42,083 bases of DNA. Source: Candidatus Coprenecus stercorigallinarum (GTDB taxonomy: Bacteria; Bacteroidota; Bacteroidia; Bacteroidales; UBA932). Each line of letters begins with the position of its first letter. Within the stretch, counting starts at the first letter, position 1. Made by a program: the position numbers and the translations under genes. The DNA is taken from contig DVIL01000013.1 in the NCBI GenBank assembly GCA_018711305.1, positions 1-42,083 of the forward strand, read 5' to 3'. The notes beneath the pieces are model-generated. The model was not told where the DNA came from and made no database searches. It worked only from the letters and a program-made list of their open reading frames with translations. Shown here one piece after another: positions 21,446 through 42,034 of the stretch.

Positions 21446-21461
21446 TGGCACGGTCTTTGTA
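21446..21461 (+). promoter_or_regulatory. Sigma-54 (RpoN) promoter of small RNA 1
   Basis: TGGCACG-GTCT-TTGTA fits the sigma-54 consensus TGGCACG-N4-TTGCW, with GG at -25/-24 and GT at -13/-12. Predicted start is the G at 21472. It begins 3 bases after the stop of the lipoprotein gene. Enhancer-binding sites, if present, would lie inside that gene. The same element in the same setting recurs at 40976-40991. Confidence 0.75.
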
Positions 21462-21471
21462 CTATCCTTAA

Positions 21472-21553
21472 GCGATAGTTTTTTCATAGGTTAAGTTTTA
21501 GGTTAAGTTAAGCAGTGTACCTCAAGTCGTGAGATTTGAGGTACATTCATTTT
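21472..21553 (+). ncRNA. Predicted sigma-54-dependent small RNA, copy 1
   Basis: About 82 nt from the predicted start to the T-rich tail after a hairpin. The 5' segment (21472-21506) contains GATAGTTTTTTCATAGG followed by two AGGTTAA units, and is nearly identical to copy 2 near 40965 (one substitution, one inserted T). The 3' part is a 12-bp hairpin unrelated in sequence to copy 2. No credible ORF is present on this strand. The conserved segment is complementary to a translation-start-like sequence (CCTATGAAAAAACTATC), suggesting base pairing with mRNA leaders. Transcription itself is inferred from promoter, conservation and the hairpin. Confidence 0.6.
21514..21553 (+). terminator. Terminator-like hairpin of small RNA 1
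   Basis: TGTACCTCAA (21516-21525) pairs perfectly with TTGAGGTACA (21536-21545), extended by G-U and A-U pairs to 12 bp, with a 10-base loop. The tail CATTTTAT is only moderately T-rich, so termination may be leaky. It probably also ends transcription of the upstream lipoprotein gene. Confidence 0.55.
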
Positions 21554-21570
21554 ATATACACAACCGGGAA

Positions 21571-33816: not shown

Positions 33817-36018
33817 TCATTTCTCAATTTTAAGTCCGCGGAAAACTGCGGTATAGCCGTCATTGGAATCCGTCATCACTATCCTTACCCGGGTCACAGG
33901 AGCCACAGGACTGAAACTCAGTTCCCCATGATACAGTTCCCCGGCCTTCACCGTCGAGCCGTCTGCGGTGGTGTATTCCACATAGGCATCGGTTACATAG
34001 AACATTCCCGAAGAAGGAGCTCCGCTGGTAACGGTTATCCTGCTGCATGTCACGGGAGATTCCATCGTATATGCAAGTACATCCCCTGCCTGAAGCACGC
34101 GGCCGGAATATCCTGTCCCGTCACGTTTTGCCAGACTCGCCAGGTTGCCTTCGGACATGGGGAAATTGCAGGTTACGGTCATTTCCGGGTCAATATAGCT
34201 GTAAAGTTCAATGTTGGAAGCCCCTACCGCGATACTGGACAGCCCGTCCCCGAAAAATGTGGCAAAGCGCATCTGTTCCGGCCTGTCCGTTACGATATTT
34301 CCCGTGCAGACCGGAGAGGAGGCTACAGGCGCACTGCCGTCAAAAGAGTACCGTACCACTGCCGACGGATGCGGTGGCCTTACCTGAAGGCTCCCGCTTG
34401 CGCTGTCGTAGACAACCTCCGGCGGCGCTACCCTGAAAGCTATGCCCATATTGTACAGACGGGAAAAATGTCCGGTATAGAGACGCTGTTCGAAATCCGC
34501 GAAATCCCGGTTCTCCCTGCTGCTCCATCCCACCTCCGCCAAAGCGCACAGACGGGGGAACAGCTGGTACTCCATAAGTCTCGGCGGCCATGCCATCAAC
34601 TCGGCCCAAAGACCGGCCTGCACCCCTGCTATAAGGGCGCTGTCGGCAGGGCCTCCAGTCAGAATTTCATCAGGCTCGAGCGAATAAGTCTTGGAAAGGG
34701 GGACTATTCCGGCCCAGCTGTGTCCTCTTTCTGCCGGAGACTGCTTCATGTCCAGATAGCAGTACTCGCCTATCTGCACCACGGTGCGGTATCCTTTCTC
34801 TACGGACATCCGCCCGCTCCTGACACTCCTCCAGGCATAGAGCAAAGCGGACCTGTCATAAACGGCATCGGAGATGACTATCTCATCCCAGCCGGCCATC
34901 TTTTTCCCAAGACCGTGAATTATTTCTTCAAGGCGGTACACGAACCAGCTGTGGAGCTCCTGCGGTCCCTCCAATCCCTTTTCCTTTGCAAGAGCCTGGC
35001 AGTGCGGGCAATTGGTCCATGCCGTATGGTCCACCTCATCTCCTCCGATATGAATATAGCCGGAGGGGAAAAGCGAGGCTATCTCCTTGAAAATGTCCCG
35101 CAGTATCCTGTAATTCTCCTCTCTTGCCACACACAGTACGTTGTCTGTCTCCCCGTTGGCGCTTATATAGGACACGTCCACAGGGCAGGCCATATCCGGA
35201 AACACTCCCACTAAAGAGCGGCTGTGTCCGGGCAGGTCGATTTCCGGAATAATCTCTATATGGCGGTCAGCTGCATAGCGGACTATCTCGCGTATCTCCT
35301 TCTGGGTATAATATCCTCCGTACCTGCCGTGCCCCTGGCCATACGCGGCAGGAGTCACTTCCCCGTCACCGCGCCAGGCTCCCTCGCGGGTCAGCTGCGG
35401 ATATTTGCGGATCTCTATTCTCCATCCGTTGTCATCGGCAAGATGCCAGTGGAAACGGTTCAGCTTGTGTACTGCCATCCAGTCTATGAGACGCTTTACA
35501 TGTTCCGCGTCAAACCAGGTCCTGGAAACATCCAGCATGGTCCCGCGGTATCCGTAGCGCGGACTGTCCGTAATGCTCACGGCATCGACATAGCAACGGG
35601 TGAGTTCAAGGGATGTTTCCCCATATACGGCGGGAGGCAGCATCTGCAGGAATGTCTGTATACCGTAGAATATTCCTGCCGAGGATGAAGCCTCAACCAG
35701 CACTCCTTCCGGTGTCACTTCCAGCCTGTAGGCCTCCGGAGCATACCCTTCGGCCAGTATCAGGGACAGTCCCCCCTCCTGGGGCTCCATGGTCCGCGGT
35801 ATCTCGAAAGACATCACGTGTGCAAGATGCCCAAGCAGATAATCAACTTCAAAATCAAGTCCTTCAGATGCGTAGACAGCTGTTCCTTCCTGCAGCAGGC
35901 AGCGGCCTTCACCAGGCACAACCGACTGAGGTATGGGGACGATGGCCGAATATGTCCGGGCCGCAGCGATTCCGGCAGCAACGGCAAGAATCATAAATAA
36001 AGAGGATATTCTTTTCAC
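33817..36018 (-). CDS. Beta-N-acetylhexosaminidase, GH20
   Basis: Removes terminal beta-GlcNAc or GalNAc from glycans. About 733 aa from the GTG at 36018, which gives a clean signal peptide (KRISSLFMILAVAAG); a TTG two codons upstream overlaps the GH84 stop. An N-terminal GH20b domain (about 30-150) precedes the catalytic barrel with GYRGTMLDVSRTWFDAEHVK and FHWHLADDNGWRIEI. The catalytic Asp-Glu pair is in YIHIGGDEVDH. A chitobiase-type C-terminal domain (VRYSFDGSAPV) and a final F5/8-like beta module follow. The enzyme is exported. The operon partners GH84 and a transporter suggest stepwise trimming of amino-sugar glycans such as mucin or glycosaminoglycans. Confidence 0.93.
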   Translation of the reverse strand: MKRISSLFMILAVAAGIAAARTYSAIVPIPQSVVPGEGRCLLQEGTAVYASEGLDFEVDYLLGHLAHVMSFEIPRTMEPQEGGLSLILAEGYAPEAYRLEVTPEGVLVEASSSAGIFYGIQTFLQMLPPAVYGETSLELTRCYVDAVSITDSPRYGYRGTMLDVSRTWFDAEHVKRLIDWMAVHKLNRFHWHLADDNGWRIEIRKYPQLTREGAWRGDGEVTPAAYGQGHGRYGGYYTQKEIREIVRYAADRHIEIIPEIDLPGHSRSLVGVFPDMACPVDVSYISANGETDNVLCVAREENYRILRDIFKEIASLFPSGYIHIGGDEVDHTAWTNCPHCQALAKEKGLEGPQELHSWFVYRLEEIIHGLGKKMAGWDEIVISDAVYDRSALLYAWRSVRSGRMSVEKGYRTVVQIGEYCYLDMKQSPAERGHSWAGIVPLSKTYSLEPDEILTGGPADSALIAGVQAGLWAELMAWPPRLMEYQLFPRLCALAEVGWSSRENRDFADFEQRLYTGHFSRLYNMGIAFRVAPPEVVYDSASGSLQVRPPHPSAVVRYSFDGSAPVASSPVCTGNIVTDRPEQMRFATFFGDGLSSIAVGASNIELYSYIDPEMTVTCNFPMSEGNLASLAKRDGTGYSGRVLQAGDVLAYTMESPVTCSRITVTSGAPSSGMFYVTDAYVEYTTADGSTVKAGELYHGELSFSPVAPVTRVRIVMTDSNDGYTAVFRGLKIEK

Positions 36019-36020
36019 GC

Positions 36021-38519
36021 TCAAAGTATTTCAAATATATCAGCTTTACCTTCTATGCTGAGTCTCGCGGTACGCGGGTCGAGTTTCAGCTCGCAATACG
36101 GGTCATGCGTCAGGGTTTCCTTGATACGCACGCCGTCGGATGTGTACTGGCGGACAAGCAGGCTGCCGTACGGCCTCATGAGAAGGACACGGCCATTGAC
36201 CCGGTCGTCCCCGAAAGGTATTTCCACAGAGATGACTCCTTCCAGAGAATAGTATGATCTCGGATTGCGGTCAAACGCATACACGGCCCGCTCCATATCC
36301 GGGGCGGTGACCTTGAATCCGAGAGTCTCTGTCCGCTGGGGATTGACGCTGAAAGTACGTATGGCACACCAGTTGGTCTTGCCGGATTCCAGCTTTCTCA
36401 GACGCACATAGCGTGCATCGACGCCCCGTCCTTCCCATCTGACGTCATACTGCCCGTCTACGGTGTCGATAAGCGGATACCACAGACGGCTGTCCTTTGA
36501 CGCCTCGAGTGTGGCAAGGTCGAAGTAGTCCACATCGTCCGTGGAGTTACGGCCCTGAAGGACGTTCACCTCCCGAAGTCCCCTGACAATGCCGAGGTCC
36601 ACTCCGATCCAGTCACCGGTCTTCTGCGAACTTGCCGAAGTATAGTATGTGGTGGAATCATCGTCGAACATCAGCTTGCCTGTGATTGTTCCGGAATTGG
36701 GGAAGGAACCTATTGCCTTATATGAGAACGGGCCGCGTCCGGTAAGACTGCGGTAGAATCCGTCCACCATGTCATCCATGGCATGCTCATAGAACGGCTG
36801 GAGCTTTAGAGTGCCGGATTTGTGCGCCTCATAGGATTCCCTTTCGGATTGGGACATCAGATTGTCCACATAAGCCGCCCAGAACGCAGCATTGTCGCCT
36901 CCCCTGTATATCTGGATCAGTTCGAGAGTCCTGCGTCCCCTTTCGCCGAGCTTGGAGAATTCCTCCAGCCAGGGGTGGATCTCACGCATCAGGGCATCGT
37001 TCCTGCACTTTCCGGACATTTCACCGTGCACCTTTTCTATTTTCCCGAATTCTTCCATCAGAGCCTCGAACTGAGCTTCGGTCCAGTCATCCCCCACACG
37101 GAAGGTCTCTGTCTCCCATGACTCGTCGCGGCGGTAGCCCGACTCGGTGTCGCATGAATGTATGGCAAAGGTACGGTAGGCATCGGCGGCCTCCTTTCCG
37201 GCCAGCCATACCAGCGCACGTTCCCAGTTGGCTATGGGATCATAGTCCTTGGTATTCCATGTGTAATCGGCCACTCCATAAAGTGCCAGCTTGGATGCCT
37301 CCGCATGCTCCATGGGGTTGCTGACAAGCCCGCAGAGGTTTTTGCTGCCGAGACTGTTGTCAAGGCCGTATGCAGGTCCCTGCATGATGATATTGCGGCA
37401 GTAGTCGGTTACAGGGAAGTTCCACCAGTACAGGGCGGGACGCTGTATTCTGTCCCCCACCCACCTGAGTGTCGAGGGAGTCAGGTCGCTGCACACCGCA
37501 TCCCCTGTCCAGAACACCCGTACCGAAGGGTCGAGACTGCGTCCGTAGACTGCCAGACTGCCTTCGTCCGAGGGATCGGCCCACGAGCGGTTGTAATCCG
37601 TAGGACAGACGATAAGAGGGGCCACATCCCCTTTTGCCGCCACGAAATCAGCCGTAAGGCGGTTGAGCAGCCCGACCTGCTTAACCGGATCGGTGCCCTC
37701 TCCGGAAATATCGTCGAAGAAAATGGCAAAGGACCTGACGCCCAGACTGTACATTTTCTCGAACTTGGCAATCAGGTTGGCATAGTCCTCCTCATTCCAC
37801 TTTATATCCTGACCGGGATGCACAGCCCATACAAAGTCCACCCGGTTGCGCTCGCAGGCCCTGACCAGTTCCGCAATATTGCGGGCCTCGACTGCAGGAT
37901 AGGGCTCCCTCCAGTAGGGTGAGCTGTGATAGGGGTCATCCTTCGGACCGTAGATGTAGGTATTCATCTTGAAACGGCCGTAGAAATCGATGAGGGACAG
38001 ACGGGCCTGGTGCGACCAGGGTGTCCCGTAGAAGCCCTCCACAACTCCACGCACCGGAAGATCCGGCCAGTCATTGACCGTAAGGTAGGGCAGACTGTCC
38101 TCCCCGTTCTGCTCCACTATCTGGCGCAGTGTCTGCAGGCCGTAGAAAGCTCCCCTTTCATCATAACCCATGATAAAGATGCCATCTTCCCCCACTGTAA
38201 GCCGGTAGGCTCCCGATACGGCACGTACTCCTGCCTTTACAGCTTTTTTAGGGTGGAAATCTATTTCAAGCCGGACAGACTTCTTGTTACCCTTTGCAAG
38301 GAAATCCACATCTGAGGCGAACGCCTCCTGCCTGTCCATTATCCTGACCCCTTCCGAGACATCGAGCCTCTCCCCATCCGGACTCAACTCGACACTGTGA
38401 GGGGTGGGATTGATAACAGGGCCTGAAGCGGCATCGCAGCCGGCAGCCCTGGCATTGGCAGACAGGGCACATACGGCCAACAGCAGAAACAATTTTCTGA
38501 GAATTTTCATATTGCTCAT
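36021..38519 (-). CDS. Beta-N-acetylglucosaminidase/hyaluronidase-like, GH84
   Basis: 832 aa exported enzyme of the O-GlcNAcase/NagJ family. A signal peptide (KILRKLFLLLAVCALSANARA; an ATG three codons in is equally plausible) precedes a GH20b-like N-domain. The catalytic barrel starts at GVVEGFYGTPWSHQARLSLIDF and continues to KMNTYIYGPKDDPYH, with the catalytic Asp-Asp pair in FAIFFDDISGEG. A helical region and a discoidin/F5-8-type domain (about 600-760, TSASSQKTGDWIGVDLG) follow, then a short C-terminal beta region. It overlaps the GH20 gene by a few bases at its 3' end and begins 1 base after the truncated GH31 frame. Confidence 0.93.
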   Translation of the reverse strand: MSNMKILRKLFLLLAVCALSANARAAGCDAASGPVINPTPHSVELSPDGERLDVSEGVRIMDRQEAFASDVDFLAKGNKKSVRLEIDFHPKKAVKAGVRAVSGAYRLTVGEDGIFIMGYDERGAFYGLQTLRQIVEQNGEDSLPYLTVNDWPDLPVRGVVEGFYGTPWSHQARLSLIDFYGRFKMNTYIYGPKDDPYHSSPYWREPYPAVEARNIAELVRACERNRVDFVWAVHPGQDIKWNEEDYANLIAKFEKMYSLGVRSFAIFFDDISGEGTDPVKQVGLLNRLTADFVAAKGDVAPLIVCPTDYNRSWADPSDEGSLAVYGRSLDPSVRVFWTGDAVCSDLTPSTLRWVGDRIQRPALYWWNFPVTDYCRNIIMQGPAYGLDNSLGSKNLCGLVSNPMEHAEASKLALYGVADYTWNTKDYDPIANWERALVWLAGKEAADAYRTFAIHSCDTESGYRRDESWETETFRVGDDWTEAQFEALMEEFGKIEKVHGEMSGKCRNDALMREIHPWLEEFSKLGERGRRTLELIQIYRGGDNAAFWAAYVDNLMSQSERESYEAHKSGTLKLQPFYEHAMDDMVDGFYRSLTGRGPFSYKAIGSFPNSGTITGKLMFDDDSTTYYTSASSQKTGDWIGVDLGIVRGLREVNVLQGRNSTDDVDYFDLATLEASKDSRLWYPLIDTVDGQYDVRWEGRGVDARYVRLRKLESGKTNWCAIRTFSVNPQRTETLGFKVTAPDMERAVYAFDRNPRSYYSLEGVISVEIPFGDDRVNGRVLLMRPYGSLLVRQYTSDGVRIKETLTHDPYCELKLDPRTARLSIEGKADIFEIL

Positions 38520-38520
38520 A

Positions 38521-39177
38521 TTATTCGATTGTCATGTATTTGTATTCCAGTGCGGGACTTACCGCCACTGCATCGCACGGACGCGGAGCCACGCCGCCGT
38601 CAGTCCAGCTGTTTTCGTTGACAATATTGATGCGGTGTCCTTTATGCGAGAAACGGCCGTTCTGCACGCCTCCGCCATAGAAATACTCACCGTCCCGTTC
38701 TGCCAGGACGATTGTGGTGCGGGGCTTGCCGCCCTTGACCTCAAACCTTACCGGTGCGGTCTGACGCAGTACCTCGCGCCCGCTGCGCAGGTCGGTGACC
38801 GTCATCGTTCCGTCCGCTTTTGCAAAAGCGACGCGAATGACACCGGTGGCCAGAATCCAGGCTTCCTCCCCCTCCTCTATGGTATAGGTCACTCCCCTAC
38901 GCAGATTCTGCACCAGAATATCCGCAGCGGGTTCAGCCTCCGGATTGCGTACTATGCCGCCATTGTCATCCCGGAAAAGGCGGAATATATCCGGCGCGTA
39001 AAAGTCGACTGTCATTCTGTGACCGTCGGACAAGACAAGTTCTGCGGCCGTAGGATTGAGACGCACGGCCTCCTTTACGGACTGAGAGAAGGCCTCCTGC
39101 ATGGAAAAGCATGAAACGGCCATTACGGCGAAAAACGTCGCCGCTATCTTTCTCACTCTGGATATCATGTCTGTCAT
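38521..39177 (-). pseudogene. N-terminal fragment of a GH31 alpha-glucosidase-like protein
   Basis: 218 aa from the ATG at 39177 with a signal peptide (about residues 1-32, ending AFSQ). The body resembles the galactose-mutarotase-like N-domain of GH31 enzymes: LVLSDGHRMTVDFYAPDIFRL, then EYFYGGGVQNGRFSHKGHRINIVNE with the aromatic/Gly motif that precedes the barrel. After NSWTDGGVAPRP the family pattern breaks off and the frame ends within 20 residues (SPALEYKYMTIE), so the whole catalytic barrel is missing. It may be a deletion remnant kept as the first frame of the operon, or a free-standing glycan-binding domain. Stop is 1 base from GH84. Confidence 0.6.
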
Positions 39178-39194
39178 ACTATCTAAAATACTTA

Positions 39195-39202
39195 CAAATA
39201 TA
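39195..39202 (-). promoter_or_regulatory. -7 promoter element of the glycosidase operon
   Basis: TATATTTG on the minus strand matches TAnnTTTG exactly and lies 17 bases before the ATG of the first frame. No TTG is found at the usual -33 distance, so activator dependence is possible. Confidence 0.5.
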
Positions 39203-39351
39203 ATGAATTTATGCAACCGCCGGAGCGCCTTTCCCGACAAAGTTTCCGATGCCCGGAACGGGCTTTGAAATTTAGCCGATTTTAGTTGCAATTATGATTT
39301 TTTTTATCCTTATTTGCCTAAAATTTAACACAAAACACTAAATACTTTTTT

Positions 39352-40857
39352 ATGGACAACAACATCCTGAAGTACAACATCAATCCTCTCGTCAACGCCA
39401 TCGGGAAGACCCCCGACCAGTTTACGAAAGAGGACATAATCAATTTCATCACCGCCAACGACATCCGCGTCGTCAACTTCCGCTACATCGCAGGCGACGG
39501 CAGGCTCAAGACCCTCAACTTCCCGGTCAGCAGCCTCCAGTACCTCGACCTTATCCTCTCGTTCGGAGAGAGAGTGGACGGCTCCAGCCTGTTCTCCTAC
39601 ATCCAGGCCGGCTCCAGCGACCTCTACGTCATTCCCCGCTTCTCCACAGCCTACCTCGACCCCTTCGCCGAGATTCCGACCTTAGGACTGCTCTGCTCCT
39701 ATTTCACCAAGGACGGACTGCCTCTGGAAAGTTCTCCCGAATACACCCTGAGAAAGGCCCACGAGGAGTTCAAAAAGACCACAGGCTACACCTTCGAGGC
39801 TATGGGCGAGCTGGAGTTCTACGTGATCTACGATGATGACTGCTGCTTCCCTTCGGAGAACCAGCGCGGCTACCACGAGTCCACTCCGTTCACAAAGGTA
39901 GAGGCCTTCCGTACCGAGGCCATGAAGCTCATCTCCCAGGTAGGCGGCAACATCAAGTACGCCCACTCCGAGGTAGGAAACTTCACACTCGACGGCAAGG
40001 TGTACGAGCAGAACGAGATCGAATTCCTCGTATCGCCCGTGGAATCAGCCGCTGACCAGCTGGTAATGGCCAAATGGATCCTCCGCACCCTCGCATGGCA
40101 GTATGGCTTCGACATCACCTTCGCCCCCAAGATCACCGAGGGAAAGGCCGGAAGCGGACTGCATTTCCACACCCGCATGATGAACGGAGAGCATTCGGTA
40201 ATGCTCAAGGACGGCCGTCTCTCCGACGAGGCCCGCAAGGCTATCGCCGGCTACATGACCTGCGCCTCCTCGCTGACAGCATTCGGCAACGCCAACCCTA
40301 CCTCCTACTTCCGTCTCGTACCCCACCAGGAGGCACCCACCAGCATCTGCTGGGGAGACCGCAACCGCTCCGTGCTCGTGCGCGTACCCCTCGGCTGGAC
40401 CGGAAAGAGCGACATGTCAGCCATCGCCAACGGCCTGCCCCAGAACCCCGATATCGTAATGCCTGACAAGCAGACCGTAGAGCTGCGCTCCGGCGACGGC
40501 TCGGCCGACATCCATCTGATGCTCGCCGGACTGGTGACTGCCGCCCGCATCGGCTTCGAGCTGCCCGACGCACTGGAGATCGCCAAGAAGACCTACGTGG
40601 ACGTAAACATCCACGACGACAAGAATGCAGCCATCCTCAACTCCCTGGCCCAGCTGCCCACCTCCTGCGCAGAGTCCGCCGACGAACTTGAGAAAAACCG
40701 CGCCCTCTACGAGGCCAAAGGCGTATTCTCTCCGAGCATGATCGATGGCCGCATCGCCATGCTGCGTGCTTACAAGGATGCCAATATCCGCGAGGAGACC
40801 GCCCGCGACAAGGGACTCATGATGGAACTCGTGAGAAAGTACTATCACTGCGGATAG
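39352..40857 (+). CDS. glnA: Type I-like glutamine synthetase
   Basis: Condenses glutamate and ammonia with ATP in nitrogen assimilation. 501 aa. The beta-grasp domain is about residues 15-110 (INFITANDIRVVNFRYIAGD). Catalytic segments include FEAMGELEFYVIYD (metal ligand Glu), QNEIEFLVSP, GKAGSGLHFHTRMM (ATP/metal His), PHQEAPTSICWGDRNRSVLVRVP and VELRSGDGSADIHLMLAGL. The tail lacks the classical adenylylation Tyr context, so GlnE-type control is not expected. The 174-base upstream gap holds a weak promoter candidate (TTG 39286-39288, CTTATTTG 39309-39316) and a small GCCCG-GAA-CGGGC dyad near 39250. It converges on a sigma-54 small RNA with a shared terminator. Confidence 0.92.
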   Translation: MDNNILKYNINPLVNAIGKTPDQFTKEDIINFITANDIRVVNFRYIAGDGRLKTLNFPVSSLQYLDLILSFGERVDGSSLFSYIQAGSSDLYVIPRFSTAYLDPFAEIPTLGLLCSYFTKDGLPLESSPEYTLRKAHEEFKKTTGYTFEAMGELEFYVIYDDDCCFPSENQRGYHESTPFTKVEAFRTEAMKLISQVGGNIKYAHSEVGNFTLDGKVYEQNEIEFLVSPVESAADQLVMAKWILRTLAWQYGFDITFAPKITEGKAGSGLHFHTRMMNGEHSVMLKDGRLSDEARKAIAGYMTCASSLTAFGNANPTSYFRLVPHQEAPTSICWGDRNRSVLVRVPLGWTGKSDMSAIANGLPQNPDIVMPDKQTVELRSGDGSADIHLMLAGLVTAARIGFELPDALEIAKKTYVDVNIHDDKNAAILNSLAQLPTSCAESADELEKNRALYEAKGVFSPSMIDGRIAMLRAYKDANIREETARDKGLMMELVRKYYHCG

Positions 40858-40886
40858 TCTAACCGTTCTGACAGTCAGCAACCAAA

Positions 40887-40965
40887 GAAAAAAAGGACAT
40901 CAGCCACAGAAACTGATGTCCTTTTTCCTTATTAACCTAAACTTAACCTATGAAAAAACTATCAC
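40887..40965 (-). ncRNA. Predicted sigma-54-dependent small RNA, copy 2
   Basis: About 79 nt from the predicted start G at 40965 to the T-run after the hairpin. The first 34 nt (40965 to 40932) match copy 1 at 21472 except for one substitution at position 2 and one missing T: GATAGTTTTTTCATAGG, then AGGTTAA twice. The rest, including the terminator hairpin, is unrelated to copy 1. Conservation begins at the predicted start and stops before the hairpin. The plus strand here reads like a gene start (CCTATGAAAAAACTATC) but opens only a 58-codon antisense frame. Function is inferred: base pairing with mRNA start regions carrying the complementary leader. Confidence 0.65.
40890..40926. terminator. 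Bidirectional intrinsic terminator (glnA and small RNA 2)
   Basis: AAAAAGGACATCAG (40890-40903) pairs perfectly with CTGATGTCCTTTTT (40913-40926) over a 9-base loop, with A- and T-runs on both flanks. It can end glnA transcripts on the plus strand and the small RNA on the minus strand. Confidence 0.9.
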
Positions 40966-40975
40966 TTCTACTTCT

Positions 40976-40991
40976 TGCAAACTGCGTGCCA
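40976..40991 (-). promoter_or_regulatory. Sigma-54 (RpoN) promoter of small RNA 2
   Basis: On the minus strand TGGCACG-CAGT-TTGCA is an exact match to the sigma-54 consensus. The predicted start 12 bases after the -12 C is the G at 40965, where the conserved RNA segment begins. The promoter starts 3 bases after the TAA of the upstream gene, as at copy 1. The 10 bases between promoter and start differ completely from copy 1. Confidence 0.82.
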
Positions 40992-40994
40992 CGA

Positions 40995-41927
40995 TTACGG
41001 GACAACGTATCTGGACTTCTGGACAGGAGGGGGGCCGGATGCTGTTCCGGAGCCTCCGGCTGCACCCACAGAGGCCTTGTAGGGCTTTGTAGGATCGAGA
41101 GGATCGTATTGGGGCACAGGCCTTGAGACATGATATACCTTCGGGTCGAAATTAGGGTCGAGAAATATCATGTCGTCGAACTCCGGCCTTCCGCCCACCT
41201 CCGGCTGCGGCACCAATGTCTCCCACGTCCCCACTGTCCCGAAATTGAATAATCCCAGCAACAGGGAGAAAATCCGGACTGCTATAGACGGGTTGCGCTG
41301 CATCTCGCGGACAAACTCAGGTGACTCATTTATCATGCGGGTCAGTATCAGCCTCCTGTCCCGCTCAAGTATCTCCTCCACCGAAGGCTGCCTCGTAGCA
41401 CTCCATCCGTTACCCGCGTCAGGATCCGGCACCGGCAGTACGGACGGCAGCATGGACGATGGAGACAGAGTGCCGCCCGATTCCTGAACGCCCCCAAAGT
41501 GCTCATTGCTGAATGAACTCAGCCTGTCGGACCACTCCTGCCTCATCTCCTTCAGACGTTCTGCCCTCACTAGAAGCGGAAGCTCCCCATATACAATCTG
41601 ACGTGCCGCATCCGCGACCGAGTCCGCCACCCAGGCATCCAGCATTCCCATCCTGATGGCCCGGACCATAGCCGCCCTCACGTCTCCCTCATACTGAATG
41701 ACAAGTGCGGCCAGGGAATCCTCCGGAGCGCAGTCCTGCCGGCCAGAATCCACCTGAGCAGACTCCCTGCGGTTGTAATCTTTCCAGCCATAAGCCTCAC
41801 GGCCATCCGCACACAGGCCTTCGGCATACCGGAGATCAGCCCCACCGCAGGGAACAGACATGAGCACCCCGGCAGCAACCGTGACCGAGACCAGGATATA
41901 CAGCGACATTCTTCCCATATACGTCAT
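40995..41927 (-). CDS. Exported hypothetical protein
   Basis: 310 aa from the ATG at 41927, which begins a signal peptide (MGRMSLYILVSVTVAAGVLM, cleavage near CGGA); the frame is open 96 bases upstream but that part is not membrane-like or gene-like. The mature part has an alpha-helical region (about residues 70-140, LAALVIQYEGDVRAAMVRAI and ERLKEMRQEWSDRLSSF), a Ser/Pro-rich stretch, a hydrophobic helix near 235-250 (SIAVRIFSLLLGLFNFGTVG) and a Pro/Gly-rich C-terminal tail. I recognise no family. Its 3' end abuts a sigma-54 promoter, so its mRNA probably shares the terminator of small RNA 2. Confidence 0.75.
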   Translation of the reverse strand: MTYMGRMSLYILVSVTVAAGVLMSVPCGGADLRYAEGLCADGREAYGWKDYNRRESAQVDSGRQDCAPEDSLAALVIQYEGDVRAAMVRAIRMGMLDAWVADSVADAARQIVYGELPLLVRAERLKEMRQEWSDRLSSFSNEHFGGVQESGGTLSPSSMLPSVLPVPDPDAGNGWSATRQPSVEEILERDRRLILTRMINESPEFVREMQRNPSIAVRIFSLLLGLFNFGTVGTWETLVPQPEVGGRPEFDDMIFLDPNFDPKVYHVSRPVPQYDPLDPTKPYKASVGAAGGSGTASGPPPVQKSRYVVP

Positions 41928-42019
41928 TTTGAAAATTATATTCCGCGAATATAGGTGGGTTCTATCAATTCCATTTTTTATTTCTTGCATAAGGCAGCAG
42001 AACCCTTTAACTGTCTTGA

Positions 42020-42034
42020 GCAAGATAATCTTGC
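42020..42034. repeat. 15-base palindrome upstream of the exported protein gene
   Basis: GCAAGAT-A-ATCTTGC, perfect 7-base arms around one base, about 95 bases upstream of the minus-strand gene starting at 41927. It is operator-like in size, but there is no recognised regulator or promoter next to it. The last bases of the window hold a C8A7 run. Confidence 0.4.

Follow-up and report, generated by a model that had tools for sequence, protein, structure and literature searches.

The window analysed here is the whole stretch of 42,083 nucleotides from Candidatus Coprenecus stercorigallinarum (contig DVIL01000013.1), which carries two copies of a predicted small RNA (sRNA); two further copies lie elsewhere in the same genome. 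The features are as follows, with positions given in the window unless a contig is named.

40976..40991, minus strand: putative sigma-54 promoter of sRNA copy A, TGGCACGCAGTTTGCA (−24/−12; pattern match C77:40976-40991:-)
40885..40965, minus strand: predicted sRNA copy A (RF04319 match and match to the R1 model described below)
40932..40963, minus strand: conserved 5′ seed of copy A, GATAGTTTTTTCATAGGTTAAGTTTAGGTTAA (invariant core in alignment; predicted SusC-start pairing)
40890..40926, no strand assigned: terminator hairpin of copy A (14-nt perfect inverted repeat; fold −25.2 kcal/mol, z −5.0)
21446..21461, plus strand: putative sigma-54 promoter of sRNA copy B, TGGCACGGTCTTTGTA (pattern match C77:21446-21461:+)
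21472..21553, plus strand: predicted sRNA copy B, ends inferred (RF04319 match; R1 E 1e-17, copy B being among the sequences from which R1 was built; fold z −6.3)
21474-21506 and about 21514-21547, plus strand: seed and terminator hairpin, respectively, of copy B
39352..40857, plus strand: glutamine synthetase gene, convergent with sRNA copy A (PF00120, E 3.1e-51; PF03951)
40995..42023, minus strand: 342-aa ORF (TTG start as listed) whose end lies just upstream of the promoter of copy A (ORF list)
C95:33757-33834: third predicted sRNA copy (transcript-model match)
C92:10660-10734: fourth predicted sRNA copy, diverged (transcript-model match)

The 342-aa ORF matches no Pfam family at E ≤ 0.001. 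On the plus strand, positions 40932-40965 read TTAACCT-AAAC-TTAACCT-ATGAAAAAACTATCAC, and the minus strand of copy B at 21474-21506 reads TTAACCT-AAAAC-TTAACCT-ATGAAAAAACTATC. This is exactly the arrangement given in an earlier note on this DNA, which had described a TTAACCT box, a second such box and a start-codon-like stretch at both copies and had interpreted them as the reverse complement of small-RNA 5′ segments. The sequence TTAACCTATGAAAAA has exactly three exact matches in the 2.14 Mb genome, namely copy A, copy B and C95:33763. In the minus-strand layout of copy A, TGGCACGCAGTTTGCA (40991-40976) is followed by a 10-nt gap, by GTGATAGTTTTTTCATAGGTTAAGTTTAGGTTAATAAGG from 40965 and by the hairpin at 40926-40890. 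The 5′ end is placed at about 40965, taking +1 as twelve bases past the C of the −12 element, and position 1 of the FopS model, which is blind to the promoter, aligns to the same base. The invariant core of the seed is TTTTTCATAGGTTA in an alignment of 30 sequences. The small-RNA reading fits the remainder of the anatomy, because a sigma-54 site (TGGCA[CT]-N5-TTG) lies upstream of all four copies in this genome and each ends in a terminator hairpin with T-rich sequence after it (folding, z −4.3 to −6.3). The 5′ segment is mostly unpaired in the predicted folds, although copies A, B and C form weak 5′ helices at the energy minimum. The hairpin of copy A, placed just behind the glutamine synthetase gene, has A- and T-runs on its two sides, and this terminator is possibly usable in both directions.

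The transcript model R1 was derived from 30 copies and describes sequence only, because RNAalifold predicted no pairs on the 30-copy alignment, the terminators being different. R1 locates copy A at 40881-40963 with E 2.4e-15, copy A having been included in its construction. One more match in the searches, L104:7704-7777 (R1 E 0.0026), was not counted as a copy, as it is without a sigma-54 site and carries only part of the seed. That the plus-strand ATGAAAAAACTATC is instead the genuine start of a small exported protein is most improbable: M-K-K-L-S is indeed encoded in each of the three exact copies, but the frames, read by eye, diverge right after these residues and continue into sequence complementary to the sigma-54 promoter, and no common product is visible by eye among the three. 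To judge from sequence features, the four loci probably encode a trans-acting sRNA of the FopS type, only about 75-85 nt long and under sigma-54 control.

FopS of Bacteroides thetaiotaomicron comprises fourteen paralogous sRNAs, each with a terminator behind a single-stranded 5′ seed, which are transcribed from sigmaABfr promoters under induction by bile salts, bind the RRM protein RbpB, and pair at the susC mRNA start to block translation, an action that RbpB opposes (PMC11697453). The sRNA GibS has the same seed as FopS (PMC7366714). In comparison with FopS (RF04319), copy A scores 31.4 bits at 40885-40965 (E 0.0023) and copy B 25.7 bits at 21478-21556 (E 0.028), against a gathering score of 56; for each of the two copies in the window, no Rfam family scores more bits than FopS. 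The smaller E-value of CsrC for copy A (0.00048) goes with a low score, 18.6 against 61. When 15 relatives were scanned, one had a FopS match at E ≤ 0.05 (38.1 bits, below the cut-off) and the other 14 had no FopS match at this E-value.

The exact two-box form was found in all 19 genomes searched within the genus (the present one among them), in 4 of 16 genomes from elsewhere in the bacterial family and in none of 24 genomes from other families of the order, and the reversed control pattern was found in none of these 59 genomes. Conservation of the two boxes is thus far beyond chance. R1 detects 187 of 199 family genomes, in 24 of 25 genera, at E ≤ 0.01, and 117 of 295 genomes of the order, of which four belong to this family and most others are detected by weak matches. 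A scan of named genomes for a sigma-54 site followed by TTTTTCATAGG gave at least 117 stretches, and all 80 of the records listed are labelled Bacteroidales or Bacteroidia, including Candidatus Cryptobacteroides, Candidatus Coprenecus and one Alistipes. The seed variant in genus g10 is CATAGTTTAAG. Some loci carry more than one copy: a tandem array of at least five FopS-like matches, about 180-200 bases apart, occupies L314 24-814 (genome G380, family f80), and two sRNA copies lie about 5.2-5.3 kb apart on opposite strands at L408, L195, L209 and L212 (genus g15 and named records).

Sites of the form TGGCAYN5TTGYW occur 13 times in the genome of the window, four of the occurrences being the sRNA copies, and the reversed-pattern control occurs 8 times. 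Six of the nine other sites fall inside ORFs of at least 80 aa and three do not; one of these three (L145, G000:C74:7044-7059) lies 43 nt before the gene for a GroES-like protein, which we take to be GroES. Across 16 genera, 75 distinct copies were inspected, chosen by us from the transcript-model matches listed, with genera g8 and g43 sampled more heavily and genera with only weak matches left out; in this sample the sigma-54 site is strict in 56 copies and loose in 2, another 3 copies combine a TGGCA box with a degenerate −12 element, and the remaining 14 have an element of housekeeping type. By chance, the strict sigma-54 pattern is expected at a rate of 0.0005 per upstream region and the housekeeping pattern at 0.03. 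All 14 copies of the latter type come from two genera, g8 (5 of 5 copies; L120, L124, L325, L326 and L342) and g43 (9 of 9; L113, L114, L123 and L327-L332), where TAnnTTTG, presumably a housekeeping-type promoter motif, stands before the same seed. Outside the family, 16 loci were inspected, several of which have TAnnTTTG elements and some of which have neither promoter type clearly; two further families have sigma-54-like sites ahead of the seed (L306 and L308 in f112; L307 in f18). Sigma-54 control of FopS-like RNAs may therefore have arisen or been lost more than once in the order.

Whatever the promoter, the seed is recognisable throughout the loci inspected within and outside the family. 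The segment that is kept while the promoter changes is therefore constrained at the level of RNA and not as part of the promoter. Between the −12 element and TTTTCATAG there are 19-22 nt in 148 of the 161 sigma-54-type cores, a set that includes loci found via the sigma-54 pattern, and such a near-constant distance would also be expected if the segment were a DNA element of the promoter, either an operator or the initial transcribed region. This explanation can hardly be upheld, given that two genera, and other families too, have this segment downstream of housekeeping-type promoters, and that FopS has a similar segment, yet its promoters are of the sigmaABfr type (PMC11697453).

The exchange of promoters in g8 and g43 was not accompanied by loss of rpoN, an explanation that was rejected, because the rpoN domain is present in 25 of 25 genera (186 of 199 family genomes). 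The genome of the window encodes rpoN and four full sigma-54 activators, three of response-regulator type and one without a receiver domain. The gene of the receiver-less activator is directly followed by lptE (L133 1441-3206, G000:C55), and it is possible that this activator is an envelope sensor. The pair is not peculiar to this genome, because a study of F. psychrophilum names a probable sigma-54 regulator alongside lptE (PMC9723704). In 24 of the 87 genomes with both an sRNA and rpoN among the matches listed, the two lie on one contig within 10-28 kb. Their neighbourhood is a conserved block extending from a ribosomal protein S16-like gene, which we name from its protein sequence, to rpoN. 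The sRNA is close to the S16-like gene in the blocks of several genera (L407, L410, L412 and L415) and is absent from the block of the present genome (L416). The predicted ORFs of the sRNA-rpoN block gave no match at E 1e-20 to the four activators of this genome, and a functional reading of the sRNA-rpoN linkage was not adopted. A search for a shared activator site found words enriched upstream of the sigma-54 sites, which may come from the conserved neighbouring coding sequence of orthologous loci.

SusC, the major nutrient transporter of the outer membrane, is central to the feeding of gut Bacteroidales. The earlier note had proposed that the sRNAs repress a family of genes sharing the complementary leader, and had named SusC-type genes as having such starts. 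The literal form of this proposal did not survive: TTAACC-N(2-31)-ATGAARA occurs in the genome at the four sRNA loci and at four other sites, none of which is a SusC gene, and the exact two-box leader is found at the sRNA loci and upstream of no gene, so that a gene family sharing the literal leader was rejected. Two exported peptidase-like genes (L319, G000:C60; L322, G000:C84; the function is guessed from sequence) have TTAACC just before ATGAAGA and pair moderately, at −17 to −20.

Complementarity to SusC starts is instead extended and imperfect. The genome has five SusC genes above the family cut-off, four of them with an assembled start (C43, C100, C4 and C1) and one, C8, whose start is unassembled. 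In duplexes with copy A, whose energies ignore accessibility, these four starts reach −27.4 (C43), −23.5 (C100), −23.3 (C4) and −18.6 kcal/mol (C1), compared with a mean of −13.5 (sd 3.5) kcal/mol for 301 sampled gene starts. C43, C100, C4 and C1 are accordingly in the best 0, 1.3, 1.7 and 9% of the 301 starts with copy A, and in the best 0, 3.0, 3.3 and 20.9% when the best of three copies is taken. Three of the four SusC starts thus pair unusually well (best 4%), and C1 is no outlier (best 21%). The duplexes join sRNA nt 1-34 to 1-39 with mRNA positions that lie within −29 to +20 and span the start codon. No SusC gene lies within the 42,083-nt window, in agreement with the earlier statement that no target is present there. 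The best-pairing start in the window is that of a GH20 gene (−22.6 kcal/mol, which ranks it in about the best 5% of the genes sampled), and this gene could itself be an sRNA target. It belongs to a group of GH20, GH84 and mutarotase-like genes at 33817-39291 on the minus strand, near copy A.

The same analysis was extended to the genus, in which SusC searches listed 56 matches in 18 of 19 genomes. Four matches were not taken (one 36 bases from a contig start, a startless fragment, the C8 gene of the present genome and one partial match), and of the 52 examined another four were dropped (three without an ATG and one at a contig end), leaving 48 starts counted by a first-ATG rule, which was used instead of a signal-peptide score rule that dropped 21 of the 52. 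With the best of three sRNA copies, the 48 starts have a mean of −21.4 kcal/mol, and the corresponding backgrounds are −15.7 (301 starts), −15.7 (84 GC-matched starts) and −16.3 (32 GC-matched starts with K or R as second residue). Ranked against the background, 20 of the SusC starts are among the best 5%, 19 are in the 5-15% range, 6 are in the 15-50% range and 3 pair worse than the median. Background starts are capable of equally strong pairing, two of the 301 reaching −26.4 or lower. The difference has a p-value of 2e-11 against GC-matched starts and of 5e-7 against those with K or R as second residue, values that overstate the evidence because the SusC genes within a genus share ancestry.

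The controls by shuffling and by windows within genes carry more weight than these p-values. For 15 SusC representatives, the true mean of −19.6 was reached by none of 300 dinucleotide shuffles of the sRNA, and SusC minus background was −5.9 for the true sRNA versus −0.5 ± 0.95 for shuffled ones, a difference that likewise none of the 300 shuffles reached. Along 29 SusC genes with longer sequence, pairing peaks at −45..+29 (−21.2), and ten other 75-nt windows give −11.3 to −14.4, a comparison made without GC matching, in which the start regions are AT-rich (GC 0.26) and the other windows richer in GC. For GC-matched starts of genes other than SusC, the true sRNA is likewise a somewhat better partner than its shuffles (z −2.9), which amounts to an affinity for gene starts in general. 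Across the family, SusC pairing stands out less than in the genus: 33 starts, which were chosen by a signal-peptide rule and some of which may be wrong, have a mean of −17.4 versus −14.3 (p 2e-4; reached by 0 of 200 shuffles); 11 of these starts rank in the best 5%, and another 11 pair less strongly than the median background start.

This general affinity raises the alternative that the sRNA is real and sigma-54-driven and that its key targets are not SusC but many ATGAAAAA starts of exported proteins, or a few other genes. Starts with MK do pair above average (76 of 301, mean −16.7), and in the part of the genome that was sampled, the best-pairing starts other than SusC have averages of −20 to −22 across the four sRNA copies. 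However, SusC starts exceed even the GC-matched starts with K or R as second residue, and the preference of GC-matched non-SusC starts for the true sRNA is far smaller than the excess of SusC over shuffles. Individual candidates can be named, namely the GH20 gene of the window and the two peptidase-like genes with TTAACC close to ATGAAGA, but the latter two score only −17 to −20. The alternative is therefore unlikely, and SusC-type genes paired over the start codon remain the likeliest targets, a proposal of the earlier note that is supported by the duplex energies and the shuffle controls. The note had gone on to suggest a sigma-54-gated switch over many outer-membrane transporters; of this, the sigma-54 promoter and the pairing over SusC starts are supported by computation, and “many” was too strong for a genome with five SusC genes.

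The anatomy, copy number, conservation and promoter type of the sRNAs, and their complementarity to SusC starts beyond controls, are established by sequence, and from them we infer transcription, sigma-54 dependence and repression of SusC in the following model. Sigma-54 RNA polymerase would transcribe the sRNAs from the −24/−12 promoter once an enhancer-binding activator senses its signal. The 5′ segment (about 39 nt, mostly unpaired) would then pair across the start codon of SusC mRNA, from about −29 to +20, and, as in FopS, this pairing would probably block ribosome entry. One RRM_1 protein of 88 aa is encoded in the genome and may modulate the action of the sRNA as RbpB does. Because FopS sRNAs bind RbpB (PMC11697453), the RNA might also act mainly by holding this RbpB-like protein and not by base-pairing; the seed, whose fit to SusC starts none of 300 shuffled sRNAs equalled, makes this very unlikely.

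As for the signal behind the base-pairing model, a 2025 survey of sigma-54 regulons states, citing other work, that groES and grpE depend on sigma-54 in B. thetaiotaomicron (PMC12316311), and the sigma-54-like site before the groES-like gene of the present genome agrees with this printed statement. Tentatively, and with considerable doubt, a response of Bacteroidales to folding or envelope stress can be envisaged, in which sigma-54 would drive chaperones together with a multicopy sRNA that stops the synthesis of SusC porins, the activator next to lptE would be one candidate sensor, and some genera would have exchanged the switch for a housekeeping promoter without a change of the seed. If true, this would be a counterpart of sigma-E with MicA/RybB assembled from unrelated parts. 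A nitrogen signal is the other obvious option, because glutamine synthetase adjoins copy A.

An sRNA acting over the SusC start is already known from FopS, which shuts off SusC translation in one species, B. thetaiotaomicron, under a housekeeping promoter (PMC11697453). An RNA of the FopS kind is found here in nearly all sampled genomes of another, little-studied group of gut Bacteroidales, mostly under sigma-54 sites. What appears to be new is the sigma-54 switch, together with the spread beyond Bacteroidaceae; within the open-licence literature searched, no title or abstract start describes a sigma-54-driven sRNA in this phylum. The role of sigma-54 is little explored in this phylum, and the present reading would give it a concrete post-transcriptional arm. 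The sigma-54 signal would be testable by a simple reporter, and the genera offer a natural promoter-swap comparison.

Among known systems, the Qrr sRNAs of Vibrio are sigma-54-dependent and have Hfq and LuxO as partners. They resemble the sRNAs described here in that several copies stand under sigma-54 promoters, but they belong to another phylum, and Qrr is not among the Rfam matches of the window sRNAs. In the enterobacterial sigma-E response, an alternative sigma factor drives the sRNAs MicA and RybB, which stop the synthesis of outer-membrane proteins; the present sRNAs would be analogous if their signal is envelope or folding stress, and we know of no sequence relation between the two. 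GibS (RF04182) is similar in that its 5′ seed pairs over start codons and in its weak Rfam match to copy B, but this match has 17.6 bits versus a cut-off of 115, and GibS has a second seed and another promoter motif (PMC7366714). FopS itself differs in its sigmaABfr promoter, where all four copies here have a promoter of sigma-54 type, and in its 14 copies versus 4, and the present sRNAs score below the Rfam gathering score, have tandem GGUUAA boxes and belong to another bacterial family. In other respects the two agree: both are multicopy and short, with a 5′ seed UUUUUCAU(A/G)G ... AGGUUAA and a Rho-independent terminator; the single-stranded R1-type 5′ seed followed by the terminator hairpin is found here, with weak 5′ pairing in the folds of A, B and C; and complementarity to susC translation initiation regions is present at three of four starts in this genome and in the genus mean, and more weakly family-wide. 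An RRM protein is likewise encoded in the genome, and binding of an RbpB-like protein and repression may be supposed here by analogy. Because the anatomy and the predicted target site are shared, and the gathering score and the sigmaABfr promoter are not, these sRNAs are best labelled FopS-like.
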